Below, in pieces: positions 2,759 to 22,500 of a stretch of 23,542 nt of DNA (the stretch's first letter is position 1; each line of letters begins with the position of its first letter). Location: positions 1-23,542 of the IMG/VR virus record IMGVR_UViG_3300021089_000022; one strand, written 5' to 3'. The notes under the pieces are model-generated. The model was not told where the DNA came from. It searched no databases and saw nothing but the letters and a program-made list of their open reading frames with translations. Made by a program: the position numbers and the translations under genes. The stretch is from a virus.

Positions 2759-3483
2759 TGGATCAATTCTACAACAAAAATATTATCTTAGTAGGCAATT
2801 CGGTAGAAATGTTAAACTATGAACACGGAAAATTTATTGATTCCCATGATGTAATTATTCGTATGGGTAGAGGGATTCCAAACCCCGACGGGTTAGAAGA
2901 TAATATGAAAGCTATTGGTACTAGAACAGACGTATGGTGCACTGGATTCCTAAGAGAGAATATGATCAAAATGCCACATATTAAAACTGTTCCAATTATA
3001 CTACTTAATAGAACACGAATGTATATGAAAACTCCCCGAGAGCCGTATTATTTAAAAGACTTTTATACAATGTTTACAGATAATCAAATTCTTGATATTT
3101 ATGATGAGTTTAAATTTGTGGACACCAGATCAAGAAAAAATACTATTACAGAAAGTGTAAAGGCGGATCTACTTGGAATGAAAAATAAAACTGTACCTAA
3201 TTATGGACGTCCGTCCAACGGTTTTATTACTTTACTTTGGTTAATACGAAAAGCGAATAATTGGAAAAGTTTAACCTTGATAGGATTTGATTTCTTTGCA
3301 AAATACTTTCCAGTTAATGTAGGTCGTGCAAAACCACAAAGTTGGCATTTACCTCACAATAAACATCATGAAACCCCGCATCGTGGAGATATAGAAAGAG
3401 AGTATGCTTTAGAGTTAAAGCAAAAAGGATTGATAAATTGGATTATTCTTTCTGATTTGAAGGAAGAAGTCTTAGAGTTTTAA
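2758..3483 (+). CDS. GT29 sialyltransferase-like glycosyltransferase
   Basis: A 241-residue protein. I start it at ATG 2758, which overlaps the preceding stop (TAATG), like the other junctions of this operon; an earlier in-frame ATG at 2725 lies inside the upstream gene. The N-terminal block NIILVGNSVEML (8-19), IDSHDVIIRMGRG (27-39) and GTRTDVWCTG (54-63) has the layout of the GT29 large sialylmotif. GRPSNGFITLLWLI (150-163) and LTLIGFDFF (172-180) match the small-motif region, and NKHHE (201-205) resembles the His/Glu 'VS' motif. GT29 enzymes transfer from CMP-activated sugars (sialic acid or other nonulosonates). No transmembrane anchor is present, unlike the animal enzymes. Donor and acceptor are unknown, and no CMP-sugar synthetase is seen here. 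Its stop overlaps the convergent coq4 gene by 4 bases. Confidence 0.75.
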   Translation: MDQFYNKNIILVGNSVEMLNYEHGKFIDSHDVIIRMGRGIPNPDGLEDNMKAIGTRTDVWCTGFLRENMIKMPHIKTVPIILLNRTRMYMKTPREPYYLKDFYTMFTDNQILDIYDEFKFVDTRSRKNTITESVKADLLGMKNKTVPNYGRPSNGFITLLWLIRKANNWKSLTLIGFDFFAKYFPVNVGRAKPQSWHLPHNKHHETPHRGDIEREYALELKQKGLINWIILSDLKEEVLEF

Positions 3484-4136
3484 GTACTTTTCCAGTGGTA
3501 TTTAGTTGTCGGAAGGGTGTTGAGATTTTCGCGAACTTTATTGATATCCTCACCTAGAATATTGAACCAATCTGCAAATATATAATTCTTTGACATTTTA
3601 CCCATCTGACGGGCTTCTTTGTACAGAGGTCGACAGGAATACCATTCTCTTATTCCATTAAAGAATATCCGCATTTTTCCAACACGACTGAGAACTTTCC
3701 AACCATTACCCTCAAAATCTTTACCATATTCAATTCTTAATAGCTCTCCTATAGGATCGGGCGGATAACCACTAAGTACATGAGTAAAGTCATGAATATC
3801 TGCAATAAACTTTCGAAAAGCTTCATCTAGTTTAGCATCTTCACTACGCGTAGGAACAAGATCACTCAACTTTCCATAATAGTATTTATTTACAAACTCA
3901 AAGTATTCGCTAGCCAAAGTATTCTCTGTATTTTTATACTGTGAAACATTAGTTATAATACTATCTCCTTTCAAATATCTTTTTCCAGTAGGTGACATAG
4001 ACCAGACGATCATAGTTTTATCGAGTGAGGTTTTATTGAAGTGACGAATAAATATGGCTAGAAAGGCAGTATCGTAATTGCCTGGTTTCATCTGAATAGA
4101 AATTAGCTTTAGAATAAAAGCTAGACTTTTGAACAT
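3480..4136 (-). CDS. coq4: Coq4-family ubiquinone biosynthesis protein
   Basis: A 218-residue protein with the Coq4 signature HDxxHx11E intact: His115, Asp116, His119 and Glu131 within HDFTHVLSGYPPDPIGELL. That motif binds a divalent metal. Surrounding features also fit Coq4: MSPTGKRYL (47-55) near the N-terminus, the GYPPDPIGE turn, a central helix, and a C-terminal LPTTKYHW. Coq4 is needed for ubiquinone synthesis; recent work on the eukaryotic protein links it to oxidative decarboxylation at ring carbon C1. It usually works as a peripheral membrane protein in the Q-synthesis complex. Residues 1-15 (FKSLAFILKLISI) are hydrophobic or amphipathic and could touch the membrane. The alternative start Met16 would remove them. 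It is the last gene of the - strand operon, one base after an 18-residue hydrophobic ORF, and overlaps the convergent GT29-like gene. A Coq4 gene in a phage is unusual. Confidence 0.86.
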   Translation of the reverse strand: MFKSLAFILKLISIQMKPGNYDTAFLAIFIRHFNKTSLDKTMIVWSMSPTGKRYLKGDSIITNVSQYKNTENTLASEYFEFVNKYYYGKLSDLVPTRSEDAKLDEAFRKFIADIHDFTHVLSGYPPDPIGELLRIEYGKDFEGNGWKVLSRVGKMRIFFNGIREWYSCRPLYKEARQMGKMSKNYIFADWFNILGEDINKVRENLNTLPTTKYHWKST

Positions 4137-4137
4137 C

Positions 4138-4194
4138 TTAAAATAACCAAAAGAAAGTTATTAAGTAAAGTATTAAAATTACTAATCCTTCCAT
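4138..4194 (-). CDS. 18-residue hydrophobic micro-ORF
   Basis: What looks like a 57-base gap between the 345-residue protein and coq4 is completely filled by an ORF reading MEGLVILILYLITFFWLF. Its ATG overlaps the upstream stop (TAATG, 4192-4196). Its TAA (4138-4140) lies one base before the coq4 ATG. Both junctions copy the overlap style of the other genes here. After Met-Glu-Gly the peptide is almost wholly Leu, Ile, Phe, Val, Tyr and Trp, enough for one short membrane helix. GGA early in the ORF cannot act for its own start, so translation would depend on coupling from the upstream gene. It could be a membrane micropeptide, or merely a coupling leader that delivers ribosomes to coq4. Very short ORFs occur by chance, and an AT-rich stretch gives hydrophobic codons easily, so confidence is moderate. 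Confidence 0.5.
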   Translation of the reverse strand: MEGLVILILYLITFFWLF

Positions 4195-5231
4195 TATATT
4201 TTACCGAATAGATACCCAGCTTTAGTGACAGATTCAATCATTTTTCTCTGTCTCTCTGCTTTATCTAATAAATTATCACAGATAGCAGCTCCTCTCAGAT
4301 TAAGAGGTATATTGTCTATCTGTTTTGCCCATAGATCCCAAGGCATTGCTAAGAAGTATAAAGTTGGTACGTTCCAATAAGGACTCCAAAGCATAGGCAT
4401 ACTTTTCAATTGAACTGTATACGCTTTCCGTAACATAATATTACAGTTGATTGCGTCTTTTGGTCCGAGAGCTTCCCTTAAAAAGAGTTCATCTACTTTT
4501 CCATTAAAATAAGTTGGAGCCATTCCAACCCCTATATTATAGAATGAAGAAAATAAATCTTTATTAGTTGTAGAAAGAATAAAAGAATCTGGATCATGAT
4601 GCCATGTACCAGCAGACTCCAACTGACGACCAGATGGTGAAACTTTCATACGAGGTTTTATCTTCGGATGACGTGTTGCCCTTCCATTTTTAAAGAAATT
4701 TCTATAATCCAGTTTATCTATTTTATTCCAGTCTAGAAGTATAAGACTAGCATCGTGATCTTTTTCCGTTGCTGGAATATCTAATATATCATAGTAGTTT
4801 TTAAACATAGGATGATCTAAATAAGTCCATTGTTTTCCAAAGTAGGCAATCTTTTCGCCCATTTGTGCAATAGTGGGTAGTTGTCCTTTATCTAGAGTGG
4901 CTTGATTAAATATGCGTGGAGTATGATCCATAACTAAAACTTTTTGCATATCATGAGACTTATGGCTCCAATGGTTTTTTAGTTGTAGTATCATTCTTGA
5001 TTGAGTTTGCGGTCCGTGTCCCTTTGCTAGAGAACCTTTAATTTGCCAAGCACTTTGATAAATATGTACCTCTCTAAAATTAGCTAATGCCCATCTATGG
5101 ACAGGAGTCATTTTATCCCAAGTTTGGGGTGAGGTAAAGAGATGCAGGCGAAAGTTCTCCGCTTTGTCAAGTAGAGACGAAAGTGTGAACATAGTGTTCA
5201 GCTCTTGTGTATTTATTGCTATATCAATCAT
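4194..5231 (-). CDS. Unrecognised 345-residue protein, possibly carbohydrate-related
   Basis: I do not recognise this family. The start is ATG 5231, placed in an ATGA overlap with the upstream gene's stop (5228-5231); an in-frame TTG at 5252 is less likely. The protein looks globular and cytoplasmic, with no signal peptide or clear membrane helix. It begins with a strand-helix unit (IDIAINTQELNTMFTLSSLL), then LRLF-type strand regions and VLVMDHTP. A His/Trp-rich centre contains SAGTWHHDPDSF. The C-terminal third is rich in Trp, Pro and Tyr (MPMLWSPYWNVPTLYFLAMPWDLW) and ends in a basic helix (DNLLDKAERQRKMIESV). The alternating alpha/beta start and its coupling to a GT-B-like gene make a glycosyltransferase or related sugar enzyme plausible, but no catalytic motif can be named. 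Its stop overlaps the 18-residue ORF. Confidence 0.8.
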   Translation of the reverse strand: MIDIAINTQELNTMFTLSSLLDKAENFRLHLFTSPQTWDKMTPVHRWALANFREVHIYQSAWQIKGSLAKGHGPQTQSRMILQLKNHWSHKSHDMQKVLVMDHTPRIFNQATLDKGQLPTIAQMGEKIAYFGKQWTYLDHPMFKNYYDILDIPATEKDHDASLILLDWNKIDKLDYRNFFKNGRATRHPKIKPRMKVSPSGRQLESAGTWHHDPDSFILSTTNKDLFSSFYNIGVGMAPTYFNGKVDELFLREALGPKDAINCNIMLRKAYTVQLKSMPMLWSPYWNVPTLYFLAMPWDLWAKQIDNIPLNLRGAAICDNLLDKAERQRKMIESVTKAGYLFGKI

Positions 5232-6127
5232 GTCGTTAATGTATATTCCCAAAAATTATCTAAGTAGTTTTGTAATCTTTCCTTTGGATCAGGATCAAAA
5301 TTAAATATAATTCCTGATCGCCTACTTGATAGTATCTTTCTTAAAGCAGTTCCTGAACCTTCTTTATGCCCTGCCACTGCTTGATAAATCGCTTCATAAG
5401 TAAGATGGTTTTTTTCTCTTGCTTTTACTGGAATTGCTACTGTTGAAATCTTTTTTCCTAAAAGTAATCCTATTAGTCCCATTTCGCTATTTGGACATAT
5501 AGCCAACTCTTTACAATTCAAAAGTAATTCAAATCCTCCTGCTTTTTTATTTAAAATTTTATCTTCCCCGTATCTCCCTTTCATCTTTGCTATCCAGAGA
5601 TGGGCAGTTATAGGATGAGGCTTAATTACATAGCCATCTTCTACTAAAGCGTCCATCTTTTTCCAATTCATTATATTTTTCTGTATCAAATTGCTTCCTG
5701 GTGGGAAGATAACCTTGTCATAAAATTCTGTGTTCCATTGTAACACATATTTATTCTCTAGGTTTTTGATGATTTTTTCTATTCGATCTTCATCAATTAT
5801 TATTTCTGAATCATCTGCAAGATTGCTCATCAATCTATTATTTATTATTACACTATTTACTCTTATATAAATTGCTTTACTTAAAAAGTCTGTATACAAC
5901 CAAGATCTAACAGTCATATTCTCATTAGTATTATACCAAAGATCATACTCAAAAGGACTTCCTCTGTACTTCTCTGGTATAAGCAAGTGCTTAAACTTAT
6001 TTAGCTCTTGCAGTTGAGACTTAGGTCTCATTGTACTGCCCGACTTCATATAATGAGTAGGTAAATCACCTAATTCTTCATTTATGGAAAGAGCATCTAA
6101 TTTTGCAGCTCTTCCGTTAGCTGCCAT
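5228..6127 (-). CDS. GT-B-like / capsule-polysaccharide-synthesis-like glycosyltransferase
   Basis: A 299-residue protein whose C-terminal half resembles capsule synthesis enzymes of the KpsC/KpsS type and other GT-B folds. DGYVIKPHPITAHLW (164-178) carries the characteristic KPHP motif, and CKELAICPNSEMGLIGLLLGKK (205-226) matches the 'S-x-x-x-x-E-x-x-x-x-G-K' loop that contacts a nucleotide sugar in those families. The N-terminal half (1-130) is not recognisable to me. GAGAAAGAG stands upstream of ATG 6127 as a ribosome binding site, and the start overlaps the upstream gene by 11 bases. The stop overlaps the next gene (ATGA). No signal peptide is seen, so a cytoplasmic role on a lipid-linked glycan or a protein is likely. 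If active it would add a third glycosyltransferase near the Thr-rich fibre. The fold call is inference from two motifs. Confidence 0.65.
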   Translation of the reverse strand: MAANGRAAKLDALSINEELGDLPTHYMKSGSTMRPKSQLQELNKFKHLLIPEKYRGSPFEYDLWYNTNENMTVRSWLYTDFLSKAIYIRVNSVIINNRLMSNLADDSEIIIDEDRIEKIIKNLENKYVLQWNTEFYDKVIFPPGSNLIQKNIMNWKKMDALVEDGYVIKPHPITAHLWIAKMKGRYGEDKILNKKAGGFELLLNCKELAICPNSEMGLIGLLLGKKISTVAIPVKAREKNHLTYEAIYQAVAGHKEGSGTALRKILSSRRSGIIFNFDPDPKERLQNYLDNFWEYTLTT

Positions 6128-6314
6128 CTCTTTCTCTCTTTTTAAGTTCGTGAACTTGTTGTTCTAAGACTTTTGTTCTATTTTCAAAATCTTCTATTGT
6201 ATCAAAGAGAGCTGCCATCATGCCCTCCATTTTTCTATTTACATATTCAGGGGTAACATTCCCTTGGGTGTTATCCCTTCTAAAGCCTTTGTCTTTATTT
6301 GTGTCTTTCGCCAT
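6117..6314 (-). CDS. Small coiled-coil protein
   Basis: A 65-residue protein starting at ATG 6314, one base after the stop of the large repeat protein. Upstream in-frame ATGs (6383, 6335) lie inside that gene and are less likely. A hydrophilic charged N-terminus (MAKDTNKDKGFRRDN, 1-15) is followed by a continuous predicted helix from about residue 24 to 62: PEYVNRKMEGMMAALF, then DTIEDFENRTKVLEQQVHELKKRE, with hydrophobic residues at heptad-like spacing (M, L, I, F, V, L, V, L). It has no membrane segment. Position directly after a fibre gene suggests a trimeric coiled-coil adaptor or a fibre-assembly chaperone, the sort of small protein often found there, but no family is recognised and the role is inference. 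Confidence 0.72.
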   Translation of the reverse strand: MAKDTNKDKGFRRDNTQGNVTPEYVNRKMEGMMAALFDTIEDFENRTKVLEQQVHELKKRERDGS

Positions 6315-6315
6315 G

Positions 6316-9219
6316 TTAGTTCCATTTTGAGCCATCCCAGTAAGAAGCATCATAATCTGTAGCGCTTGACACTTCAGTATCATATATAGTTCCTGCTGAA
6401 CTGGCAGTTATTCTTTCAAATATTTGAGTTCCCGTTGCAGTTGCAAAGGTAGTCACATGTCCCGTTAATATCGTAGTATCCGTTGCTCTACTTGTATTAT
6501 AAACTGTTGAAGTTGTTAATGAAGTAGCATAAACCGTACCCGATTCTCTTGTAGTATTAAACGTAGTAGTAGTGGCTTGCGAAGTATTAAACGTCGAAGT
6601 AGTACTCTTACTAGTTGATGTAGCCCTACTACTTGCTGTACTGTGCGTAGTATTATATACTGTATCAGTACTCTTAGTTGTACTAGTAGCTCTGCTACTT
6701 GCTGTACTGTGTGTAGTATTATAGGTCGTAGTAGTACTCTTACTAGTTGCTGTAGCACGACTTGTAAGTGTACCAAGCGTAGTAGCATATACTGTAGTAG
6801 TAGATTTACTTGTTGCAGTCGCTCTACTACTTGCTGTACTATGTGCAGTATTATAGGTCGTAGTAGTACTCTTACTAGTTGCTGTAGCTCTGCTGCTTGC
6901 TGTACTATGTGCAGTATTATAAACCGTAGTGGTACTCCTACTCGTGCTAGTAGCACGACTCGAGATCCTAGAAGTACCGTAAGCGGTTTCATAATTAGTG
7001 CTTCTTGAAGTATTTGTATTCCAAGTTGTAGTTTTACTTGTGTTAGTACTCCACGTTGTAGTTTTACTCGTGTTAGTACTCCATGTTGTAGTTTTACTTG
7101 TATTAGTACTCCATGTGGTAGTATTGCTTGTATTAGTATTATTTGTTTGAGCAGTTGCGTTAGTAAATCCTGTATTCCAAGTTGTAGTTTGACTTGTATT
7201 AGTATTATTTGTTTGAGCAGTTGCGTTAGTAAATCCTGTATTCCAAGTTGTAGTATGACTCGTATTAGTATTCCAAGATGTTGCCGTATTTCTAGAAGTT
7301 GCTGTATTCCATGTGGTTGTCCAGGAAGTGTTAGTATTATTAGTAAATCCTGTAGAATTTGTACCACTATCTGTCCAGGATGTTGCTGTATTCCTACTAG
7401 TACCGTAAGCGGTATTATTAGTCGACCCAGTACTATTAGTAAATCCTGTACTCCACGTTGTGGGATTAGTTCCAGAAGTTGGATTAGTTCCAGAAGTATT
7501 ATGTGAGGAACTCCAACCAGTATTTGTATTCCAAGATGTTGCAGTATTATTAGTCGACCCAGTACTATTAGTACCACTCTGTCCAAAAGACGTAGTTCTG
7601 GTATCCCCTTGTGAAGTACTATTAGTACCACTATCTCCAAAAGTCGTAGTTCTGCTTGAACCTTGAGTAGTATCGTATGCGGTATTATCAGCGTACGCTG
7701 TAGTCCAAGATGTGTTTGTTAGGAAGACTGTAGGTTGCCCTTCTGGTCCCACGAAACTAACCGTTATGTTCGTTCCTGTTGTTGATCTAGAAGTATTAGT
7801 ACTTCTGGTTGTACTCCAAGTGGTATTGTAGGCAGTACTTTGTGAAGTATTCCACGATGTATTAGTATTCCAAGTTGTAGTGTAGGCAGTACTTTGTGAA
7901 GTATTCCATGATGTATTAGTATTCCAAGCAGTATTAGTACTATTAGTTCCGGCAGTACTATTAGTTCCAGTTGTATTATGTGTGGAACTCCAACTAGTAT
8001 TTGTATTCCAAGATGTATTTGTATTTTGTGAAGTATTCCTAGCAGTATTAGTATTCCAAGCAGTGTTTGTACTTCTACTAGAATCATACCCCGTACTGTT
8101 ACTACTTGAGGTAGTCCATGAAGTTGCTGTGTTCCTAGAGGTTGAGGTACTAGCTCCGCCTGCTGGATCTGTGACTTGTGAGGTTGAATTAGTAAATCCC
8201 GTACTATTAGTTTGGGCAGTACTAACTGTATACTGAGTAGTCTGTGAGGTGCTTCTAGTAGTATTCGTATTCCAACTAGTATTTGTAGCAACTACATAAT
8301 CGGTAGTCTGTGAAGTACTCCGTGTAGTATTCGTATTCCAACTCGTATTTGTACTAACTGTGTATTCAGTAGTCTGCGCAGTATTATCTGCATACTGAGT
8401 AGTCTGCGCAGTATTATCTGCATACTGAGTAGTTTGTGCAGTATTATCCGCATACTGAGTAGTTTGTGAGGTTGAATTAGTAAATCCCGTATTTCTACTA
8501 GTTGTTATTGTAGTATCATAACTAGTAGTATAAGTAGTGGTAGTATCATATACTGTGGTAGTTGCATGACTAGTATTATAAGTCGTGGTAGTCGTATATA
8601 AAGTAGTAGTGTCAAATGTAGTAGTCGTTGCATGACTTGTCAGATAAGTAGTAGTAGTGGTATATAAAGTAGTTGTATCCCACGTAGTAGTTGTTGCCTT
8701 ACTTGTATTAAACGTAGTTGTAGTTGTATAAGTAGTAGTGGAATCAAAAGTAGTAGTAGTACTTCTAGTAGTTTCATACTCGGTCGTCGTTGTAAATAAC
8801 GTAGTAGTTGCAAAAGTTGTAGTGGTTGCAAGAGTAGTTTCGTATGCAGTAGTAGTAGTATATAAAGTAGTTGTATTAAATACAGTAGTTGTGTCTCTAG
8901 TAGTTGCCCACGTAGTCGTTGTAGACCTAGTTGTATTAAAAGTAGTTGTGGTATCTCTAGTTGTATCAAATACAGTAGTTGTATCTCTATTTGTATTAAA
9001 TGTCGAAGTTGTGCTGTAAGCAGTTTCTTGAGTTCCTGAAACATAGGTTGTTTCAGTATTTGTTGTTCTAGTAGTTGTATGAACAGCCGAGAACGGCCCC
9101 TCTAAACTACCGCCATCATTTACGTAGACTTCATTGACACGACGAATCGTCCCACTATCATTTATAGCAAGAAATCGTAATGTGCGGAGTGTTCCCCCAT
9201 CATTTACGTAAATTGACAT
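6316..9219 (-). CDS. Giant Thr/Asn/Ser-rich repeat protein, putative tail fibre
   Basis: A 967-residue protein with a clear TAGGAG ribosome binding site before ATG 9219. The N-terminus (1-40) has three copies of a YVNDGGTLR-type motif (IYVNDGGTLR, AINDSGTIR, VYVNDGGSL), which I know from phage structural proteins. Residues 47 to about 925 are almost entirely Thr, Ser, Asn, aromatics and Arg. The first part repeats in 10-12 residue units of the form aromatic-x-T-x-R-x-TTT. The middle uses NTSWNTNTSW- and QTTQYADNTA-type units, and the end uses 22-residue units (STASSRATATSKSTTT). A short non-repetitive insert near residue 490 contains VGPEGQPTVFL. The C-terminus (about 930-967) returns to mixed sequence ending YWDGSKWN. 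N-x-S/T tripeptides occur by the dozen. Cys is absent from the regions I read. Clean stop-free length and adjacency to fibre genes support a real structural protein. A beta-solenoid or extended, possibly glycosylated stalk is inference. Confidence 0.85.
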   Translation of the reverse strand: MSIYVNDGGTLRTLRFLAINDSGTIRRVNEVYVNDGGSLEGPFSAVHTTTRTTNTETTYVSGTQETAYSTTSTFNTNRDTTTVFDTTRDTTTTFNTTRSTTTTWATTRDTTTVFNTTTLYTTTTAYETTLATTTTFATTTLFTTTTEYETTRSTTTTFDSTTTYTTTTTFNTSKATTTTWDTTTLYTTTTTYLTSHATTTTFDTTTLYTTTTTYNTSHATTTVYDTTTTYTTSYDTTITTSRNTGFTNSTSQTTQYADNTAQTTQYADNTAQTTQYADNTAQTTEYTVSTNTSWNTNTTRSTSQTTDYVVATNTSWNTNTTRSTSQTTQYTVSTAQTNSTGFTNSTSQVTDPAGGASTSTSRNTATSWTTSSSNSTGYDSSRSTNTAWNTNTARNTSQNTNTSWNTNTSWSSTHNTTGTNSTAGTNSTNTAWNTNTSWNTSQSTAYTTTWNTNTSWNTSQSTAYNTTWSTTRSTNTSRSTTGTNITVSFVGPEGQPTVFLTNTSWTTAYADNTAYDTTQGSSRTTTFGDSGTNSTSQGDTRTTSFGQSGTNSTGSTNNTATSWNTNTGWSSSHNTSGTNPTSGTNPTTWSTGFTNSTGSTNNTAYGTSRNTATSWTDSGTNSTGFTNNTNTSWTTTWNTATSRNTATSWNTNTSHTTTWNTGFTNATAQTNNTNTSQTTTWNTGFTNATAQTNNTNTSNTTTWSTNTSKTTTWSTNTSKTTTWSTNTSKTTTWNTNTSRSTNYETAYGTSRISSRATSTSRSTTTVYNTAHSTASSRATATSKSTTTTYNTAHSTASSRATATSKSTTTVYATTLGTLTSRATATSKSTTTTYNTTHSTASSRATSTTKSTDTVYNTTHSTASSRATSTSKSTTSTFNTSQATTTTFNTTRESGTVYATSLTTSTVYNTSRATDTTILTGHVTTFATATGTQIFERITASSAGTIYDTEVSSATDYDASYWDGSKWN
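6620..6949 (-). repeat. 66-bp imperfect tandem repeats, about five units
   Basis: These encode 22-residue units of the type NTAHSTASSRATATSKSTTTTY near the C-terminus of the Thr-rich protein. The + strand anchor CTTGCTGTACT recurs at 6632, 6698, 6830 and 6896, exact multiples of 66; the unit between 6698 and 6830 is diverged. The period is a multiple of three, so copy changes keep the frame. Outer limits are approximate. Confidence 0.85.
7021..7140 (-). repeat. 30-bp tandem repeat, four units
   Basis: Four consecutive 30-base units (7021, 7051, 7081, 7111) share the + strand core GTTGTAGTTTTACT with few substitutions; the last unit is the most diverged. They encode the decapeptide TNTSKTTTWS and variants. 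The units are in frame within the Thr-rich protein. Confidence 0.93.
7141..7272 (-). repeat. 66-bp tandem duplication, two units
   Basis: The 66 bases at 7141-7206 recur at 7207-7272 with about two substitutions. They encode 22-residue units containing WNTGFTNATAQTNNTNTS. The near identity points to a recent duplication or gene conversion within the Thr-rich gene. Confidence 0.93.
8371..8460 (-). repeat. 30-bp tandem repeat, three units
   Basis: Units 8371-8400 and 8401-8430 are identical, and 8431-8460 differs at only a few bases. They encode QTTQYADNTA three times. There is no spacer variation, so this is a coding tandem repeat, not a CRISPR array. Confidence 0.95.
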
Positions 9220-9227
9220 CTAAACTC

Positions 9228-9449
9228 CTATGAATACACGTACCATACGTGTCCGCTAGATGTTGCTCCTACTCCTGTTGGCGCGGATGAAGTAATAGTA
9301 TAGGGTAATCTACCTGCCGTTACTGTACCGCTCGTAATCTTACCAGCTGCAATATCTAAGTTACTTACGGCTCTACCAGAAGTAATAACTTCAGTACCGT
9401 CTACACTCAAACCTGCATCTTCAATATTAAATTGTAATTTTGTTCCCAT
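9228..9449 (-). CDS. Small tail-fibre-associated structural protein
   Basis: A 73-residue protein starting at ATG 9449, one base after the stop of the 1009-residue fibre. Residues 1-30 (GTKLQFNIEDAGLSVDGTEVI) look like beta strands. The middle AVSNLDIAAGKITSGTVTAGRLPY echoes the 'xIAAxxI' solenoid repeats of the neighbouring fibre. The C-terminus APTGVGATSSGHVWYVYS resembles endings I have seen in other phage fibre proteins (a Gly-rich turn followed by WYVY). This suggests a short cap, chaperone or detached fibre tip that assembles with the upstream fibre, but the role is inference. Its stop overlaps the TAGGAG ribosome binding site of the Thr-rich gene, so the two are probably co-translated. 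Confidence 0.75.
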   Translation of the reverse strand: MGTKLQFNIEDAGLSVDGTEVITSGRAVSNLDIAAGKITSGTVTAGRLPYTITSSAPTGVGATSSGHVWYVYS

Positions 9450-9450
9450 T

Positions 9451-12400
9451 TTATGCCTCTATTGTTGTCCTTACAAATTTGTAAGCCATTGTATCGCCCG
9501 AAGCAGGAGTCACTCGTAATCTTAAATCACTACCGTTTATATCTGCGTCAAAGGCTGCTTGTGCGCCATTATCAAAAATTGACGCATATTGTGTTAAATA
9601 AACTGTTGAACCGTCATGGAATAATACAATTTCCAGTGCTTGATAGTCGCTGTCCGTTGAGTTTGTAATCTGTACAAAGTATTTTGCACTTCTAAATGTT
9701 GCATGAGCAAATGTATCTAAACTAAATACACTAGTGCTTGAACTAGTTCCTGTTCCTACATCGAATCCCCCAACTTCATCAATGTGTAGTTTTTGAAGTG
9801 GTACAGAATCTTGTATTCCTAAGTTACCTGCAACATTAGTTACGTCGTTTGTTCCGTTTCCTAAATTAGCATTTCCATTTGCATTTACTATTCCACTAAA
9901 AGTAACAGTACCACTCATGGTTTGTCCACTAAGAGCATCGGATTTAAGTTCACTAGAACTTACTGCATTGGCTGCTATTTCTGCGGCTCCTACTGCGTTA
10001 CCTGCTATTTCTGCTGAACCTACTGCATTAGAGGCTATTAAATCTGCAGTAATTAAACCGCTAGAAATCATACCTACATTGTTGATAGCATTATCCGCTA
10101 TCAAAGCTGCTGTTATTTGATCATTCCCTATATGAGCTGTATCAATTGATGCAGCTGCATAATGCTCGCTATCAATAGCGTCATCTGCAATCTTTGTTCC
10201 GTCTACTGCGTCAGCGGCTAGCTGTGCAGTACCTACTTGACCATCATCAATGTGTCTAGTAAGAATAGAATTCATGGCAATCTTAGTGCCATCAACTGCG
10301 TTATCTGCTATATTGCCTGTAGCGATTGTATTCGCTGCTATTTCAGCAGTTGTAATACTTGCCGCTATAATCTTACTTGCATTAACCGAATTAACTGCTA
10401 GTTTTGCTAAAGTAACATTTAAATCTACTATTGCAGCAGTATCAACTGCATCATCTGCTAATTGGTCTGCTGTTACTTGTGCATCATCAATATGTCGGGT
10501 AAGTATCGAGTTCTGCGCGATTTTTGTACCGTCTATGGCATTATCTGCTATATTACCTGTTGCGATTGTATTAGCCGCAATTTCAGTAGTTGTTACACTA
10601 CCCGCTACTATAGAAGCAGTTACAACTGAATTAGTTGCTAGTTGATCTGCTCCAACCGCATCATCTGCGATCATAGATTGTTCTACTGCATCTGCTTGTA
10701 TTGTTGCTGTTCCAGTAACATTTCCTGATCCGTCAAAAGAGGCTGATGTCCAAACGACATCTCCCGTCATTCCTATTGTTCTTCCTGTTGCTAAAGTTGT
10801 AGCTGTACTAGAATTACCTGTTACGGCTCCTGTTACATCCCCTTCTATATTTGATACTAAGGTTGCTACTGCATATCCTGTTCCAGAAGTATTAACGGTT
10901 GTTGTAGGAACGGCTTGGTTATCTTTAAATAACTTCCATTTTCCTGAGTCACCCGCATCTCTGAATAATCCTGCGTATAAATCTTGTGAACCACTAGTGT
11001 CATATAAACCATAGAATCCTATATCAACGGCATCACTTGAATTATTTGTTGATGCCAAAGCAATTAGTGGATCTGCAGCAACGATAGTTGTTGAAGATAC
11101 TGTTGTTTCTGTTCCTGATACTGTTAAGTTGCCTGAGAGCGTTACGTTACCAGTAAACGTTTGCCCGCTAAGGGCATCACTCTTAAGCTCACTAGCAGAT
11201 ACAGCGTTTGCTGCAATCTCACTCGCAGTTACTGCGTTTGCTGCAATCTGGTCGGCTGTAATTTGGGCGTCATCTATATGACGAGTTAAAATTGAATTCT
11301 GTGCTATCTTTGTACCATCAATGGCGTTGTCAGCTATATTGCCAGTAGCAATAGTATTAGCCGCTATTTTCCCTGAAGTTACTTGAGCGTTTCCTATATG
11401 AGCTGTATCAATAGATAAGTCTGCATAATGTTCACTATCAATAGCATTATCAGCAATATGTTCATTATCTATTGAACCTGTTGCATAATGTTCACTATCA
11501 ATAGTATTATCAGCTATTAGAGCTCCTGTAATTGCATCTGCTGCTATATCTGCCGTAGCTATTGTGCCGTTTACTATTTTAGCACTTGTAACTGAATTGT
11601 TTGCTAAATGAATAGTATCTATACTAAGAGATACTATTTCTGCACTATCCACAGAATTTGCAGCCATTTGGTCTGCTGTAATCTGTGCATCATCTATGTG
11701 TTGAGTTAGAATAGCGTTATTTGCTATATCTGCAGCAACGATTGTTCCGTTTACTATTTTAGCTGTAGTAATTGAATTATCTGCTAAGTCTGCTGTCACG
11801 ATTGTTCCATTAACAATCTTAGCTGAAGTAATTGAATTATCTGCTATATCTGCTGTTACGATTGTTCCATTAACAATCTTAGCTGAAGTTACTGAATTTG
11901 CTGCTAACTGATCTACTGTTACTTGGTTATCATCTATGTGTTGAGTTAGAATAGCGTTATTTGCTATATAAACTGATGTTATTGTGCCTGTTAAGATTTC
12001 TCTTGCAGTAATATTATTTTCTGCTATCTTAACACTTGTAACTGCATTATCCGCTATTTGAAGTGTTGCTATCGAGTTAGTTGCAATTTCACTTGTGTCT
12101 ACTGCGTTAGCTGCTATCTTTGCGGAAGTAACTGCATTTGCAGCTATCTTAGCTGCTGTTACTTGTAAGTCCCCTATATGGATAGTATCTATACTACCCG
12201 TTGCTATTTCACTTGAATTTACTGAATTTTCTGCTATCATTGCAGCCGAGATAGCGTTGTCCGCTACCGAGGTTACTGCTGTTCCCTGTAAATGAATTGC
12301 TGATACCGCATTCGTTGCTAGTTCACTGGTGCCAATACTATTTGCGGCTACCTCAGAAGTCCCAACGGCGTTCGCGGCAACTTCACTAGCTGTAATCGAG

Positions 12401-12480
12401 TTACTTACTATTTCAGTAGTACCTACTGCATTAGCTTCTAAAGAAGCTACTAATGCCATTTGTTTACCTATGAGTGCCAT
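9451..12480 (-). CDS. Tail fibre with decapeptide solenoid repeats
   Basis: A 1009-residue fibre protein. Residues 1 to about 440 and about 600-850 consist of 10-residue repeats of the form IADNAIDGTK, IAANAVTSAK, LATNSVVTAS, with Ile/Leu/Val-Ala-x-Asn in each turn: a regular beta-solenoid-type pattern common in marine phage fibres. A non-repetitive island (about 440-600) holds LSGNLTVSGTETTVSSTTIV, then GFYGLYDTSG, and ATTLATGRTIGMTGDVVW, which matches a conserved module of phage fibres. The C-terminal approximately 140 residues (LQKLHIDEV, FRSAKYFVQI, LEIVLFHDGSTVYLTQYASIF, DLRLRVTPA, YKFVRTTIEA) form another domain I recognise from marine phage fibres, perhaps the receptor-binding or trimerisation tip. 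The block around IADNAIDGTKIAQNSILTRH occurs three times and LKSDALSGQT twice, showing internal duplication. The start ATG 12480 lies one base after the preceding stop. Function in host adhesion is inferred from family and context. Confidence 0.88.
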   Translation of the reverse strand: MALIGKQMALVASLEANAVGTTEIVSNSITASEVAANAVGTSEVAANSIGTSELATNAVSAIHLQGTAVTSVADNAISAAMIAENSVNSSEIATGSIDTIHIGDLQVTAAKIAANAVTSAKIAANAVDTSEIATNSIATLQIADNAVTSVKIAENNITAREILTGTITSVYIANNAILTQHIDDNQVTVDQLAANSVTSAKIVNGTIVTADIADNSITSAKIVNGTIVTADLADNSITTAKIVNGTIVAADIANNAILTQHIDDAQITADQMAANSVDSAEIVSLSIDTIHLANNSVTSAKIVNGTIATADIAADAITGALIADNTIDSEHYATGSIDNEHIADNAIDSEHYADLSIDTAHIGNAQVTSGKIAANTIATGNIADNAIDGTKIAQNSILTRHIDDAQITADQIAANAVTASEIAANAVSASELKSDALSGQTFTGNVTLSGNLTVSGTETTVSSTTIVAADPLIALASTNNSSDAVDIGFYGLYDTSGSQDLYAGLFRDAGDSGKWKLFKDNQAVPTTTVNTSGTGYAVATLVSNIEGDVTGAVTGNSSTATTLATGRTIGMTGDVVWTSASFDGSGNVTGTATIQADAVEQSMIADDAVGADQLATNSVVTASIVAGSVTTTEIAANTIATGNIADNAIDGTKIAQNSILTRHIDDAQVTADQLADDAVDTAAIVDLNVTLAKLAVNSVNASKIIAASITTAEIAANTIATGNIADNAVDGTKIAMNSILTRHIDDGQVGTAQLAADAVDGTKIADDAIDSEHYAAASIDTAHIGNDQITAALIADNAINNVGMISSGLITADLIASNAVGSAEIAGNAVGAAEIAANAVSSSELKSDALSGQTMSGTVTFSGIVNANGNANLGNGTNDVTNVAGNLGIQDSVPLQKLHIDEVGGFDVGTGTSSSTSVFSLDTFAHATFRSAKYFVQITNSTDSDYQALEIVLFHDGSTVYLTQYASIFDNGAQAAFDADINGSDLRLRVTPASGDTMAYKFVRTTIEA

Positions 12481-15896: not shown

Positions 15897-16529
15897 CTAT
15901 GAAATAATGCATGTGATATCTTTCCAGGTCGCACTCGAGGCTACTAAAGCTTCTGCTTGTGCATATGTCGCAATCAAATCCTTACAATCTATAGTATTAC
16001 CACTTGCATCTAATGAAGTAGGCTTTGATGGGTGATCCCCAGCATCAACATTTATGGAATGGCTAGCGTATGTGGCTTTTAGGGCTGCCATACCCGCATG
16101 TGAGGGTGTGGCTTCTAGTCTTGATTTTATAGTGGTTATATTATAATGTTCCCACAGACCCATTGCTAAAGCAGATATTCCCATACTATACCCTTGTTGT
16201 CTGTGATCGGGGTGTACAGTTAAATTTAATATATTTACTTCCCCCGCTGTAAAAAATCCATAAGTTCTTTGTCCAACAAAAGTTCCATCTGGTTTATACA
16301 TCCCATATACTCTAAAAATTCCATCAATTTTATCTGAAGTTATAGGTAGTGTTCCAACATCATTCACCATTAAAGATTCACTAAATCTAGTTAACCTCTC
16401 TTCGTATGAAATAGGAGTTTCTCCTGGACTTATTGGGTAGTCCCTAAAACTCATCATGAAAGCAGCAGCATCTGCTTCTGTTATAGGTTTATGTACCCAA
16501 CCATTGCTTGCTGTAACTGTTACGCTCAT
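15897..16529 (-). CDS. GNAT-family N-acetyltransferase
   Basis: A 210-residue protein starting at ATG 16529, which overlaps the stop of the tail-tip gene (TAATG). The acetyl-CoA-binding motif A is visible: strand VNILNLTVHPDHRQ (98-111), then R110-Q-Q-G113-Y-S115, the R/QxxGxG/A loop with Ser at the last position, leading into helix ISALAMGLWEHY. FRVYGMYKPDGTFVGQRTYG (72-91) is the preceding hairpin, and the helix at HAGMAALKATY is typical of motif B. GNAT enzymes transfer an acetyl group from acetyl-CoA to an amine; the substrate (host protein, small molecule, or virion protein) cannot be told. The approximately 65 C-terminal residues extend beyond a standard GNAT core. Its place between tail-tip and fibre genes suggests it acts late. 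It is the last gene before the operon's internal promoter. Confidence 0.8.
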   Translation of the reverse strand: MSVTVTASNGWVHKPITEADAAAFMMSFRDYPISPGETPISYEERLTRFSESLMVNDVGTLPITSDKIDGIFRVYGMYKPDGTFVGQRTYGFFTAGEVNILNLTVHPDHRQQGYSMGISALAMGLWEHYNITTIKSRLEATPSHAGMAALKATYASHSINVDAGDHPSKPTSLDASGNTIDCKDLIATYAQAEALVASSATWKDITCIIS

Positions 16530-19500
16530 TAGTATTTACCTCCAACTGTCCAGCCTTTGACAGTCAATAATTCGTTTTCTGTTTCCACATAGATAACTTC
16601 TGTTGATTCGTCTATGTATTCTTTCTTGCCTTGATATTCTTCCGCTAGTATCCATTCTCCCTCAATCAGTATTGGGTGATCATTTGTTATCTCTAACTCA
16701 TCTTCTAATATATAGTATCCTTCTCGTTGTTTCTCTACTATCTTCACTACTTTAGTTTTGCCTACGGGACTGTCTACTTCATCCCCCACTTCTAGTCCTT
16801 CAGGTAGCATAGCAGGAGTAAGACATTTACCACCACCAAAGTTAGCATTTGTTACCTTCGTTGTTATTGCCATTATTTTATTTGAATTACTATGTTGTAC
16901 ATAAATAGTCTTTGTCCCATGAGCAGTAGAGTCAGATCCGAAAGCATTATCAGCACTACCAGAATCTGAGTTGACATCTCCAAATGTCCATGCATTATTA
17001 CCACTTCCAGTTGCTCCACTACCAGTTCCTTCTGGTGAGCCAGATAAACCAAAGTCGCTGACTAAATTTCCATTTCTTGTCCAAGTACATACGATTGAAC
17101 TAGTTCCATAAGTTGGGTGAGTAACAGCCATAGTTACAGAAACTGTTGTTCCACTTGGTACATATATGCCGCTACCGACAAAGGCCCATCCTAAGTCTGC
17201 TGTTCCGACTGTAATCGAAATAGAACCCCATTCCATATCGTCTGCTGTAACACTTCCTGTTATTGTATTTACGGCAGCTGCGTTATCTGCTGTTATGATG
17301 TTAAACATAGGGAAATCTCCCGCATCAAATCTATCGGGGTCTATATCTCCAGTTAAATCACCAGCTGAACCACTAAAGCTTGAGGTTCCTGCTCCTACTG
17401 AACTTCTAAAGGTTGCAGCGGCTTCTGCTACCCATGCACTTCCATTCCATCTTGGAACTTTTCCTGTGCCTGTTCCCACTAAAGCGTCTATGTCTACTCC
17501 AAATCCACCTTTTGTTCTTGGAACTGTTCCACCTAAACTAGCTAAGGAAGGTGCTACTGCTGTTGTACCATCATAGTTAAGTGTTCCATCAGCTTTAGTT
17601 GTTATCTTACTGTTCTTCCAAGTAGTATCTGCCGTAACTCCAGTACCCCCTTTAGTTACTGGAGTTGTACCAGTTATATTAGATAGATTAGGAGCTATTG
17701 CTGTTGTACCATCATAGTTTAAGGAGCCATCGGCTTTAGTAGTTATTTTACTGTTCTTCCAAGTAGTATCTGCTGTAACTCCCGTTCCACCTTTAGTTAC
17801 TGGAGTTGTACCAGTTATATTAGATAGATTAGGAGCTATTGCTGTTGTACCGTCATAGTTTAATGAGCCATCAGCTTTAGTAGTTATTTTACTATTTTTC
17901 CAAGTAGTATCTGCCGTAACTCCCGTTCCACCTTTAGTTACTGGAGTTGTACCAGTTATATTAGATAGATTGGGCGCTACAGCAGTTGTACCATCATAAT
18001 TAAGTGTACCATCAGCTTTAACAGTTACCTGTGAGTTTTTAAGTGTAGTAGGAACAGAGGCAGTAGAATTAGTTCCAGTCCTTGTTAGACTTAGAGTTCC
18101 TTCTGTGAGACTAACTCCTAAATCACTATTTAAAAAGTCAGAGGTTGTAGTAGTACCTGTTCCACCTTTTGCTGTTGGAACTGCTCTACCGACATCTCCA
18201 TTAGCTGCTAGTCCTGCATTAGCTCTTACCGCTCCACTTTTTGTAGTGCCTGCATCTGGTAGAGAGTTTATATTTGGCTGTACTGCTGTAGTACCATCAT
18301 AGTTAAGCGTACCATCAGCTTTAGTTGTTATCTTACTATTCTTCCAAGTAGTATCTGATGTGACTCCAGTTCCTCCAACACTTGCAGGCAAAGTACCTGC
18401 TGATGCAGTTCCTGAAGAAAAAGATATAGCTCCTGTAGCTCCTGACATATCTTCTCCAAATCCACCGTATTCACCAGCTACTACTCGTTTAACATTACCA
18501 CTTCCATCAAATCCAGCTTGTGTTCTTGTATTTGAATCTCTTAGAGTAGCTACAGTAATAGCTGCATTAGCACCATCTTTTAGTCCCTTTATGTTATAGC
18601 CATCTGCATTTAATCCTGCAAAAGCCATTTCTTTTGCGCCTCTCATATCTTCTGCGGATACATTTACACCACCATAAGTGACTCCTAATTTTACATAACC
18701 AGTTGAGGATAATCCAGTATTAGCATAGCCTGCATAAGTTTTAGTAGTACTATAATCCCCAGAGATATTGTCTATATCTATTTCATCTTCATCAAGAACA
18801 ATAGTATCACCAAATCCTGTTACTCTTGGTGTAGGAGTTCCAAAACTAGGCGTTCCTGTATTTCCAGCTGCAGTAGTTTCTGTAACTGCATAAGAGCATT
18901 GATACCAAGTGTTTACACTCGCTCCTACTAAAGCCGGAGGTGAAAGTGTCCAACTGGAAGCATTTCCTCCAGTGAATACCCTAGTGCTAAAGGTATAATT
19001 TGTCATACTAGGAGTAGTGCTGTAGCCTGCTGCTGTTGCATAGAGTACACCCACGACTTCTTTTTTACCTACTGCTCCTGGAGCTCCGTCAGAGCCTTCT
19101 ATTTGTGATGAGGCTCCCCAATCCCATATGAAACCATATGTTCCACTACTTACAGTCCAAGCTGCTACACCTTTTGAAACCCATATTGAATTACTGCCTG
19201 CAGGTACATCTGCTATATTATCATACCATTGACCTCCTGATGAAGGTAAAGCAGCACCATAAGCAGTATCTCCCGGAGTATTAGTAGCTGTATCTCTCCT
19301 AAAAATGAAGTTAACATCACCGTGTGGATATCCTTCAATACTAGGAGTACTCCAAGAAAGGGCATCAGAGGTAGTTCCACCAGAGCTTTCTGTAGCTAGT
19401 GTTTCTGATTGAAGAACCAGAACTCCAACTGCAGCTGCTGGTTTTACTTGTGTCCACCCAGTAGGTAGACTAGCTACTACCTTAGTACTAAAATTATATG

Positions 19501-22500
19501 TTCCTGTGCTTGGCGCACTACCAAGAGTAGTTGTAGTATTATTAAAAGTATGATATTTGTATATTGAAAGTTCTGCTACTTTTCTTCCTACTGCTCCTGC
19601 TGTTCCGTCTGTTCTTTTTGCGTAAACTGCTGGAGTACCCCAAGCAACACTAGCTGCGGTTGCTGTAGAAGCTCCAGTAGCTAAACCTACAGATACATAT
19701 ACTGTGTCACCATCGGCTGAAAGGGCTGGAGGATCTTTAACCCAATTTGTAGGAACAGTCAAAACATTAGTTGTAAAGTTATAACTACCCCCACTATTAC
19801 CAGCACTACTGTTTTTTCTATAAATATATACTTCAGCGTGTGCGGCACCCTCTACTTGGAAAGGTGTAGTCCACGTATAGTTAGTAGCTCCTACTCCTTT
19901 TTCTCCGCGAGAAGCCCATAGTAAATTTGTCCCTGAAGGAGGGCTATCATACCACTGAATATCAGCAGCAGGTACTCCTGCAGAAGCGGTTGGGGTATTT
20001 GGTTTGGTAGCTGCTCTAGCAAAAACTATATTTACAGACGCTCCAGTAGATCCGTCTGTTTTTCTTGCAAAAATAGTTGGGTTTGACCATGAAACAGGTA
20101 CACTTGTATCTGAAGGAGAGCCGCTCACAAGAGCAGTACATGAATATACTGTATCTCCGTTGCTTGATACGCTTGGAGGTGTAGCGTTCCAATCAGTATT
20201 ACCGATTGTAAGAACAGAAGTAGTAAGATTAAAAAATGATTGAGATGTAGTAGGTTTAGTAGGAGATGATCCAGCACTTGCTACAACATCTGAATAAATT
20301 TTTATCTCTGAAACTGCTGTTCCTTCTACTTGAAATACATTACCCCAAACATATGCGGTTCCGCCTGTTGCTACTGTACCTTTTGATGACCATAAAGTCT
20401 CTAAAGGTGTAGTTGGTGGATCGTCATACCATTGAACATTTTGGGAAGGAATATTTAATCCATCGGCTGTTGGTGTATCAGGTTTAGCGGTTTGTCTTCT
20501 AAATACAAAATTAGTGCCTGCTCCTGTAGCTCCATCTGTTTTCCTTGCGTAAATAACTGGATTCCCCCATGTAATAGATATGCTAGTATCTGAGGGGGAT
20601 CCACTTACAAGAGCTGAACAAGAATATACTGTATCTCCGTTGCTTGATACGCCCGGAGGAGTAAGATTCCAGTCTGTATCTCCTAATGTAATAACGGAAG
20701 TAGTTGCATTATATGTAGACGAAGTAGGCTTAGCAGGAGAAGCTCCATTACTTGCTACAACATCTGAATAACATTTTATTTCTGCAACATGAGATCCTTC
20801 TACTTGGAATACAGCACCCCAAGCATACACGGTTCCTCCCGCGGCTACTGTACCCTTAGATGACCATAAAAGGTCTGTTCCACTTGGTGGGTCATCATAC
20901 CATTGGATATCCGCAGAAGGAATATTGAGACCATCAGCCGTTGGAACATTAGGTTTGGTAGCGGCTCTTGCGAATACAAAGTTAGAACCTGCTCCTGTAA
21001 CTCCGTCTGTTCCATCTAAATTCTTATTAAAAGTTTGACTTGATGTATAAGTTTGAGCTCCTTCAATATCTATAGAGTATTCAATCTCTGCTGTTGCTGC
21101 TGAAATAGTATTAGCGACTCCATATACTATAGTTTCAAGAGTAGGTGTTGCAGGATCAGTAATAATATTTGTAGCTGTACCGTGTAGACTATTAGCAGCG
21201 TTAGGGTTAATACCAGTTCCTGAAGCTGTAACTTTAAATTTACCTGTTGTTACACTTCCTGTATGTATAGCTTCTAATAAGTTTCCTCCTTTCCATACTC
21301 TTATCTGTGTTCCAGATCCTGTATAATTTTGGGCATTACTATTATTAGTATCAATAGGTATCGCGTGCGCTTGGTTTGTATTTACTACCGTATACGCATC
21401 GGTTCCTGATTTAATAGCTGCTATAGTTAGTCTATCTGAGGCTACTTCTACTGTGTTATCAGATTCTCCACTATTTTCGGAAACACTTACTGTTATAGTA
21501 GTAGGATTACTAAAGTCATCAATATCCGCGGGAACTTGAAATGTAAAAGTATCTTGATTTGCTCCAGTACCATTTGTATAAGCGGTTTCATAAGTTGTGC
21601 CTGTTGAAGCAGTTCCTGTAAATTTAAACCACGCATCAGTAAAGCCTGCTGAATTTGCTGTTATAGTAATATCTGTGCCCGTACTTGGTGATGGATTTAA
21701 TCCGTCAGTATCATATAAAACAGTATAGTGAGATGATACTATACTTACGTTATTTCCGCCTGCTCCTGCCGCTCCGTCTGCTCCTGTTCCTGCTTTAGTA
21801 AAAGAGATGATTCTAGTACTAATAGTATAATCTCTTTGTAAATCTTTAACTACTATAGTCGCAGTTGCTGAGAACTGATCAGCATCATCTAAAGAATTAT
21901 CATCTATTGTAATTACACCTGATCCAGATATATTTACATCACTAGTTGCATCAAGTCCTGTTACTGCTGTACATGTTAACCCAAAAGTACTTGCTACTGT
22001 TCCACTTGCTGCATATGTAAAAGCTTCTCCATCTCTTTCTACTGTATAAGTATTAGAATATGCTGCATAGTTTGAAGTAGTTACTAAACCATCAGAATCT
22101 GCTGCGAAAGTATGAGATTCATTAGTTCCCTGAACATTATAAGCTCCTTGCCCTTTTGATGTTCCATATTGAGTTAGCTCATAAGTTGAAGCTCCTGTTT
22201 TCGTAACCATTCCTATTATAGTATCATTTTGAAAGTCTACATGGAAAGTGTTTTTACTAAAGGCTTGATTATCTGCGTCTACTATAGTAATGTTTACTGC
22301 TGGGTCTACTATAATTTCCGAATCCGAGGTTAGAGTTCTTACTCTATGATAATGATCAACTGTAGGAGATGTTGTAGTAAACTTAAGTATATTATCGACT
22401 GCTAATTCTGGGTCAAAGTTAGTATTATCCAGTCCTAGTATATGATTAGGAGTGTGAGTTGCAGTGCTAGTCATATTTGGTGTACAAGTAATTGTTCCTG

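Follow-up and report, generated by a model that had tools for sequence, protein, structure and literature searches.

A threonine-rich phage fibre gene with mirrored, complementary arms that probably encodes a giant antiparallel beta-hairpin

The fibre gene and its parts

The window analysed here is a stretch of 23,542 nucleotides (positions 1 to 23,542 of the IMG/VR virus record IMGVR_UViG_3300021089_000022), and its minus strand carries a gene for a 967-residue protein built largely of Thr, Ser and Asn. The large side chains in the two halves of this protein mirror each other about its midpoint and are complementary in kind, and the gene product, called the fibre protein hereafter, is most probably a tail-fibre protein folded as a giant antiparallel beta-hairpin. 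Its parts are listed below with window coordinates and amino acid (aa) positions, and are named for the role they would have in such a hairpin.

6316..9219, minus strand: fibre gene, 967 codons (967 aa), start ATG at 9219
9225..9229, minus strand: ribosome binding site AGGAG, 5 nt ahead of the ATG, read from the sequence
9091..9219, minus strand: conserved N-terminal domain, putative base, aa 1-43; three hairpin-like repeats (IYVNDxGTxR..), ending in GPF
7780..9090, minus strand: outward (N) arm, aa 44-480, delimited by the mirror test and the beta-alternation
7711..7779, minus strand: apex or turn, putative tip, TGTNITVSFVGPEGQPTVFLTNT, approximately aa 481-503, at the midpoint of the repeat region
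6421..7710, minus strand: return (C) arm, aa 504-933, complementary to the N arm
6319..6420, minus strand: conserved C-terminal domain, putative base, FERITASSAGTIYDTEVSSATDYDASYWDGSKWN, aa 934-967

A first-pass annotation had placed an open frame at 6316-9219, leaving its strand unmentioned, and had remarked on its ribosome binding site and its bias towards Thr, Ser, Asn and aromatic residues. All of this agrees with the sequence: AGGAG (9229-9225) precedes the ATG at 9219, and the protein contains 359 T, 136 S, 95 N, 39 Y, 29 W and 25 F, with T, S and N together making up 61% of residues. All four Thr codons are used, and because 65% of the differing codons were synonymous across 125 pairs of relatives, the frame is taken to be under selection at the protein level. 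The worry that the repeat region might be an assembly artefact is answered by relatives from many independent assemblies and by the presence of the same residue code in isolated phages. Long Leu/Ile-rich open reading frames (ORFs) in other frames (window 6516-7640 and 8640-9044, both minus strand) are shadows of the ACN-rich fibre gene and probably not genes.

Relatives were found at 68 IMG/VR loci by the whole protein, at 168 by the N-terminal domain and at 204 by the C-terminal domain, about 200 loci in all, and range from 668 to 3108 aa in length. In GTDB genomes, no fibre relative was found at the sensitivity used. Pfam and PHROG scans of the window protein gave no match, including to the tail-collar domain and the decapeptide profile phrog_892 / PF25296, and a PDB sequence search returned nothing credible. 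Neither the whole protein nor its C-terminus matched cultured phages in tblastn, a negative that is weak for the repeat region because BLAST masks low-complexity sequence. The N-terminal motif gave a weak tblastn match to gp68 of Pectobacterium phage ZF40, the remainder of which differs; this motif with its VND/IND..GTI+R.. repeats (window 9091-9219; L071:5001-5129) also opens gp68, which adjoins the ZF40 tail-fibre genes.

Within the family the two ends (aa 1-43 and aa 934-967 in the window) are conserved and the middle between them is hypervariable. The stretch at aa ~481-503 is the only long one in the window fibre that lies outside the repeat grammar described below, and it is flanked by arms of 436 and 431 residues. 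The apex of each relative was located blind, as the 16-residue segment of the repeat region that is poorest in Thr, and in 51 of 52 clusters (proteins of 668-3108 aa) it lay 0.48-0.52 of the way along that region; the lone exception, L020, was a mis-pick by this criterion. Apex stretches at the midpoint are distinct, non-repeat and rich in the turn residues G/E/P/D/N. Another criterion, the worst fit to the repeat model, was dropped because in L013, L020 and L051 it landed on an 'RNTALAAVNT'-like segment instead.

Repeat grammar and complementarity of the two arms

For the analysis of the repeats, F, Y, W, R, K, Q and H were pooled as large residues (X), small residues were written as s, and units were cut at each X. 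The repeat regions of 35 nonredundant relatives resolved into 2,979 six-residue units (X-s-T-n-T-s or X-s-T-s-T-s) and 1,919 four-residue units (X-s-T-s), with Thr at position -2 from the next X in 94-97% of both. Aromatic spacings in the window fibre are mainly 10, 6, 4, 12 and 22, and 80 of the 82 in its repeat region are even (binomial p = 7e-22). The periodic units of 10-12 and 22 residues that had been proposed at first are thus genuine as periodicities, but they are sums of four- and six-residue units and not basic units themselves. A two-face alternating model needed only two phase slips over 878 residues of the window fibre, one at aa 64 and the other at the apex (aa 481), while shuffled controls gained nothing from it. 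One face of the fibre is composed of T/F/R/Y/Q and the other of T/S/N/A/G/D/E, and R, K, H, F, W and Y occur on the small face at ~0%.

Short repeats, beta alternation and ladders of Thr would also suit a beta-solenoid, either single-chain or trimeric, and a new thin solenoid had been among the first suggestions for this protein. The four- and six-residue units are mixed freely, however, which leaves no constant coil, and a solenoid would explain neither the mirror symmetry about the midpoint nor indels that compensate each other across the arms. The idea of a thin, extended beta fibre is retained here; the solenoid itself is very improbable.

The mirror relation was assessed by letting residue a face residue S-a and scanning S in each protein for the best coincidence of X between the arms. 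In 31 discovery proteins the best S scored z-values of 7.5-20, against maxima of 4.5-9.0 when the order of units was shuffled, and it equalled the end of GPF plus the start of FER plus 7 in 30 of the 31. At this family register there were 2,006 X-X pairs where 469 were expected, while at odd offsets from it X coincidences fell to about 0.2-0.3 of expectation. An aromatic stood opposite R/K/Q/H in 1,932 of the 2,006 pairs, and like-with-like pairs were rare (F-F 8 vs 172 expected, Y-Y 0 vs 55, R-R 17 vs 191). F is paired with R/Q/K, Y with R/K/H but hardly with Q, and W with Q or G, W-G pairs being enriched family-wide. Over the whole family 3151 of 3282 pairs were complementary (1783 expected) and 131 of the same class (1499 expected). 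The window fibre itself showed 50 complementary pairs out of 51 at the family register (p = 1.4e-13), with a ladder that runs from F74-R911 through Q348-W637 at a sum of 985, after which the register shifts by 2 toward the tip. The early suggestion of a self-adhesive fibre is borne out in an unexpected sense, in that the halves of one chain are complementary to each other. Throughout the family aromatics are overrepresented in the N arm and Arg in the C arm, so that the two strands of a hairpin would differ in charge.

Validation used 18 clusters outside the discovery set. The register was +7 in 16 of them and +5 in the other two, the apex fell at 0.492-0.507, and 966 of 1,016 pairs were complementary; 1,183 X remained unpaired at the fixed register, many of them in several clusters, as is expected if bulges shift the register. 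The longest protein (L203, contig IMGVR_UViG_3300017909_005256, ORF from about base 791) has 3,108 aa and 220 complementary pairs out of 220, with F-Q dominant. When N arms were paired with their own C arms, the complementary fraction at successive depths was 0.85/0.76/0.59/0.51, compared with 0.22/0.15/0.12/0.12 when the C arms came, at equal depth, from other members. Between relatives the orientation of a pair was flipped 149 times against 2.1 expected under independence, and the code was violated 14 times against 327 expected, counts that are uncorrected for phylogeny. Length changes are matched as well: L061 is 42 aa shorter than L054 in each arm at corresponding depth, and L046 differs from L068 by -32 in both arms and +2 in both arms.

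It is hardly credible that all this arose from slippage of tandem repeats or from metagenome assembly and is devoid of structural meaning. The neighbouring decapeptide-repeat fibre, a plain tandem repeat with few X, does reach a mirror z of 6-7.5, and indels of 20 aa in one arm only do occur. A moderate z is consequently no proof by itself, and the weight rests on complementarity and the common register. Slippage would account neither for the failure of arms from different proteins to pair, nor for observed scores of 7.5-20 over shuffle maxima of 4.5-9.0, nor for complementarity with 149 compensatory flips; no long inverted repeat was found in a search for a DNA palindrome under the mirror, and the occurrence of the code in isolated phages contradicts the assembly version.

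Gene neighbourhood and the code in cultured phages

The fibre gene lies among tail genes in a constant order, which was found in 53 loci: decapeptide fibre, [73-aa ORF], fibre, [small ORF], glycosyltransferase-like gene, unknown gene. Beyond these, on the other strand, follow a GT29-like gene, another conserved gene and nrdB/nrdA. The neighbours in the window are:

9451..12480, minus strand: decapeptide-repeat tail fibre, upstream of the fibre gene in 53/53 loci
9228..9449, minus strand: 73-aa ORF directly upstream of the fibre gene, clustered in 30/53 loci
6117..6314, minus strand: 65-aa coiled-coil-like ORF directly downstream of the fibre gene
5228..6127, minus strand: 299-aa glycosyltransferase-like partner with KPHP and PNSEMG motifs, downstream of the fibre gene in 53/53 loci
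4194..5252, minus strand: 352-aa protein of unknown function, next after the glycosyltransferase-like gene in 53/53 loci

The partner gene weakly resembles Kdo/sialic-type transferases, judging by similarities to KpsC (6mgb, E 0.083) and, in single members, to GT52 (6e-4) and Capsule_synth (6e-3). It has homologues in KVP40-like vibriophages, Caulobacter phages and Stenotrophomonas phage DLP_6, and these lie near a coded fibre in KVP40/V05 and Lullwater. In KVP40 and V05, small ORFs similar to the one downstream of the fibre gene separate fibre and glycosyltransferase, and in DLP_6 they precede the glycosyltransferase homologue. Further out, the window holds a GT29 sialyltransferase-like phage gene (2725-3483, plus strand; PF00777, 27.8 bits; 51/53 loci), a Coq4-like protein (3480-4136, minus strand; PF05019, 23.7 bits; 10/53 loci) and a 2,330-aa tail protein (16529-23521, minus strand) similar to 'Pb4'/host-specificity J proteins and weakly Hint-like at its C-terminus (Vint 16.8 bits). 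In a relative of ~105 kb, the large terminase has its nearest matches among T5-like phages (48% to Pectobacterium phage My1).

These neighbours bear on the earlier proposal of a mucin-like stalk, taken here as mainly disordered and O-glycosylated, for which the Thr/Ser/Asn content of about 61%, the glycosyltransferase-like gene downstream in 53/53 loci, the GT29-like gene on the other strand in 51/53 and the low confidence of structure predictions could all be cited. A disordered chain would have no use for a two-residue register or for mirrored, complementary and co-varying large residues, and the proposal is accordingly improbable; glycosylation of an outward face is also compatible with the hairpin.

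The same code is present in cultured phages, at the following places:

L214:2938-3531 (KVP40.0254), L212:4941-5471, L215 and L216: short coded proteins of cultured vibriophages, annotated as hypothetical or 'cell wall mannoprotein'
L213:1408-5274: baseplate wedge subunit AAY80_265 of DLP_6, with a C-terminal coded region of ~520 residues

Complementary and same-class pairs numbered 8/0 in KVP40, 8/0 in V05, 13/0 in D479 and 12/0 in K575. The apices of these vibriophage proteins are turn-like (TKGS, C-WSSGKSGS-C, C-GKGV-C), with the GKSG or GKG turn enclosed by two Cys in Vibrio phages D479 and K575 (CGKGVC in the latter form). The DLP_6 wedge protein showed 38 complementary and 2 same-class pairs in one mirror register (score 19, next-best 3.5) around the apex NPGLSQ. 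Lullwater gp41 gave a partial signal (11 complementary, 1 same, 24 unpaired) and was not counted as confirmed. No Thr-rich arms were found within the stretches read of Rb1, OC and BUCTxx99, which share the V05 N-domain, or of phiN3, which shares the DLP_6 wedge domain, and PDB searches with the DLP_6, V05 and Lullwater proteins returned nothing useful, matches to factor X probably reflecting composition. By inspection, the N-terminal domains of the cultured-phage proteins look unrelated to that of the window fibre, and the code thus seems modular.

Proposed fold and comparison with known systems

In the proposed hairpin, the conserved N- and C-terminal domains would together form the base. The outward arm (aa 44-480) would follow one nearly continuous strand path up to the tip, where the apex (aa 481-503, a GPEG turn) would be the likeliest site of receptor contact, and the return arm (aa 504-933) would run back to the base in mirror register. 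Each strand would present Thr plus a large X every 4 or 6 residues on one face, and only small polar residues on the opposite face. At each X level an aromatic from one arm would meet R/K/Q/H from the other (F with R/K/Q, Y with R/K/H, W with Q or G), and the resulting ladder of cation-pi and amide-pi contacts across the arms, with Thr-Thr layers between, would set the register much as base pairs do. The Thr/X face probably points inward, since X seldom stand two residues apart, are flanked by Thr and require complementary partners. That would leave the S/N/A/T/G face exposed to solvent and able to carry sugars; decoration of its Ser/Thr by the partner glycosyltransferase is possible, given that a glycosyltransferase-like gene lies downstream in 53/53 loci.

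If the protein is a homotrimer, as is probable by analogy with tail fibres in general, three hairpins would probably form a six-stranded needle about 140 nm long on the virion (~445 residues in each arm, at ~3.2 Angstrom apiece). A length of about 150 Angstrom is given for the T4 needle (PMC3004832). The outward, HxH-bearing arm of T4 gp37 spans about 49 residues, and on this scale ~445 residues would again correspond to ~140 nm, while the L203 arms would approach 500 nm.

Several points weigh against this hairpin. X at aa ~352 to ~490 of the window fibre pair poorly at the family register. With bulges of 2 to 4 residues the count was 66 complementary, none same-class and 19 unpaired, but it came from an alignment optimised for complementarity; the parity of bulges in gapped arm alignments was uninformative. 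L012 is asymmetric by 14-20 aa near the tip, and one-sided 20-aa indels break the mirror locally in L029, L034 and L048, where they may be collapsed tandem repeats in the assembly or real bulges. The flip and violation counts carry the phylogenetic caveat given above. AlphaFold2 monomer models reached a predicted local distance difference test (pLDDT) score of just 33 for the full window protein (20-sequence alignment) and 28 for the tip of L043, and were not used as evidence. The full-protein model contained short strands within aa 3-28 (pLDDT 55-59), and the longest strands of the first model (pLDDT 33) lay at aa 44-84 and 899-938, which are mirror partners, a hint only.

An antiparallel homodimer ribbon, in which an extended chain pairs with a second, opposite-running chain and the midpoint lies on the two-fold axis, would likewise predict an identical mirror sum and complementarity. 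A straight ribbon would have no need, though, of a distinct midpoint stretch rich in G/E/P/D/N, the Cys pairs around GKSG/GKG in D479 and K575 are placed as in a closed hairpin loop, and conserved domains at both termini are expected where the two share one base. I consider the ribbon unlikely, and the single-chain hairpin is preferred.

More broadly, it seems likely that a side-chain pairing code, comparable to base pairing, sets the register of self-complementary chains of up to 3,108 residues, with a single hairpin possibly reaching 0.5 micrometre, and that otherwise unrelated lineages share it (T5-like marine phages, KVP40-like vibriophages and the DLP_6 baseplate protein). If so, a fold and a residue-level contact map could be read from low-complexity sequence without a structural homologue, because the sequence bears an RNA-like covariation signal. 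It would also explain how a single gene can yield a thin fibre whose length changes by matched segments in both arms, and would make the location of the tip predictable as the midpoint. Simple rules (X-s-T-s units; F/Y/W against R/K/Q/H) would follow for long self-registering beta fibres, and functions are suggested for many genes, among them one of the classical phage KVP40, that are annotated as 'hypothetical' or 'cell wall mannoprotein'. A literature search found no earlier description of a mirror-complementary residue code, although its coverage was incomplete and one could have been missed.

Among known systems, the receptor-binding tip of T4 gp37 (PDB 2XGF) is a six-stranded antiparallel beta needle, and this topology is described in PMC9659904. 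The tip resembles the proposed fibre in that topology and in being rich in Ser/Thr/Asn/Gly. Its arms, however, measure about 50 residues compared with ~445 in the window fibre and ~1,500 in L203, and it is held by iron sites formed by HxH pairs of tip His, whereas the window fibre has 11 His and no HxH. Run as a positive control, gp37 gave no mirrored X signal, its HxH lying at their own heights. As iron motifs, collar domain and sequence similarity are all absent, the window fibre was not filed as a gp37-type member. The decapeptide-repeat fibres (phrog_892) are likewise repetitive tail fibres and lie in the same cluster, but are made of Ala/Ile/Asn decapeptides lacking the aromatic/Arg code. 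The triple-stranded beta-helix of T4 gp5C is another thin beta needle of phage tails (PMC3004832), in which a constant octapeptide repeat winds around an axis with no return arm, in contrast to the 4/6 units and mirror symmetry found here.

A likeness in grammar, mirrored complementary arms and turn-like apex is shown by KVP40.0254 and the related Schizotequatrovirus proteins (PHROG 30374, unknown function), whose loci also share with the window a small coiled-coil ORF followed by a homologue of the glycosyltransferase-like gene; they differ in having about 50 residues per arm, another N-terminal domain and no conserved C-terminal domain that could be seen. AAY80_265 of DLP_6 has a similar Thr-rich mirrored region, but fused to a baseplate wedge protein (PHROG 17744) instead of forming a separate fibre. 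If the hairpin reading is right, the presumed role as a fibre would be nothing unusual, unlike the building principle, a mirror-complementary residue code.

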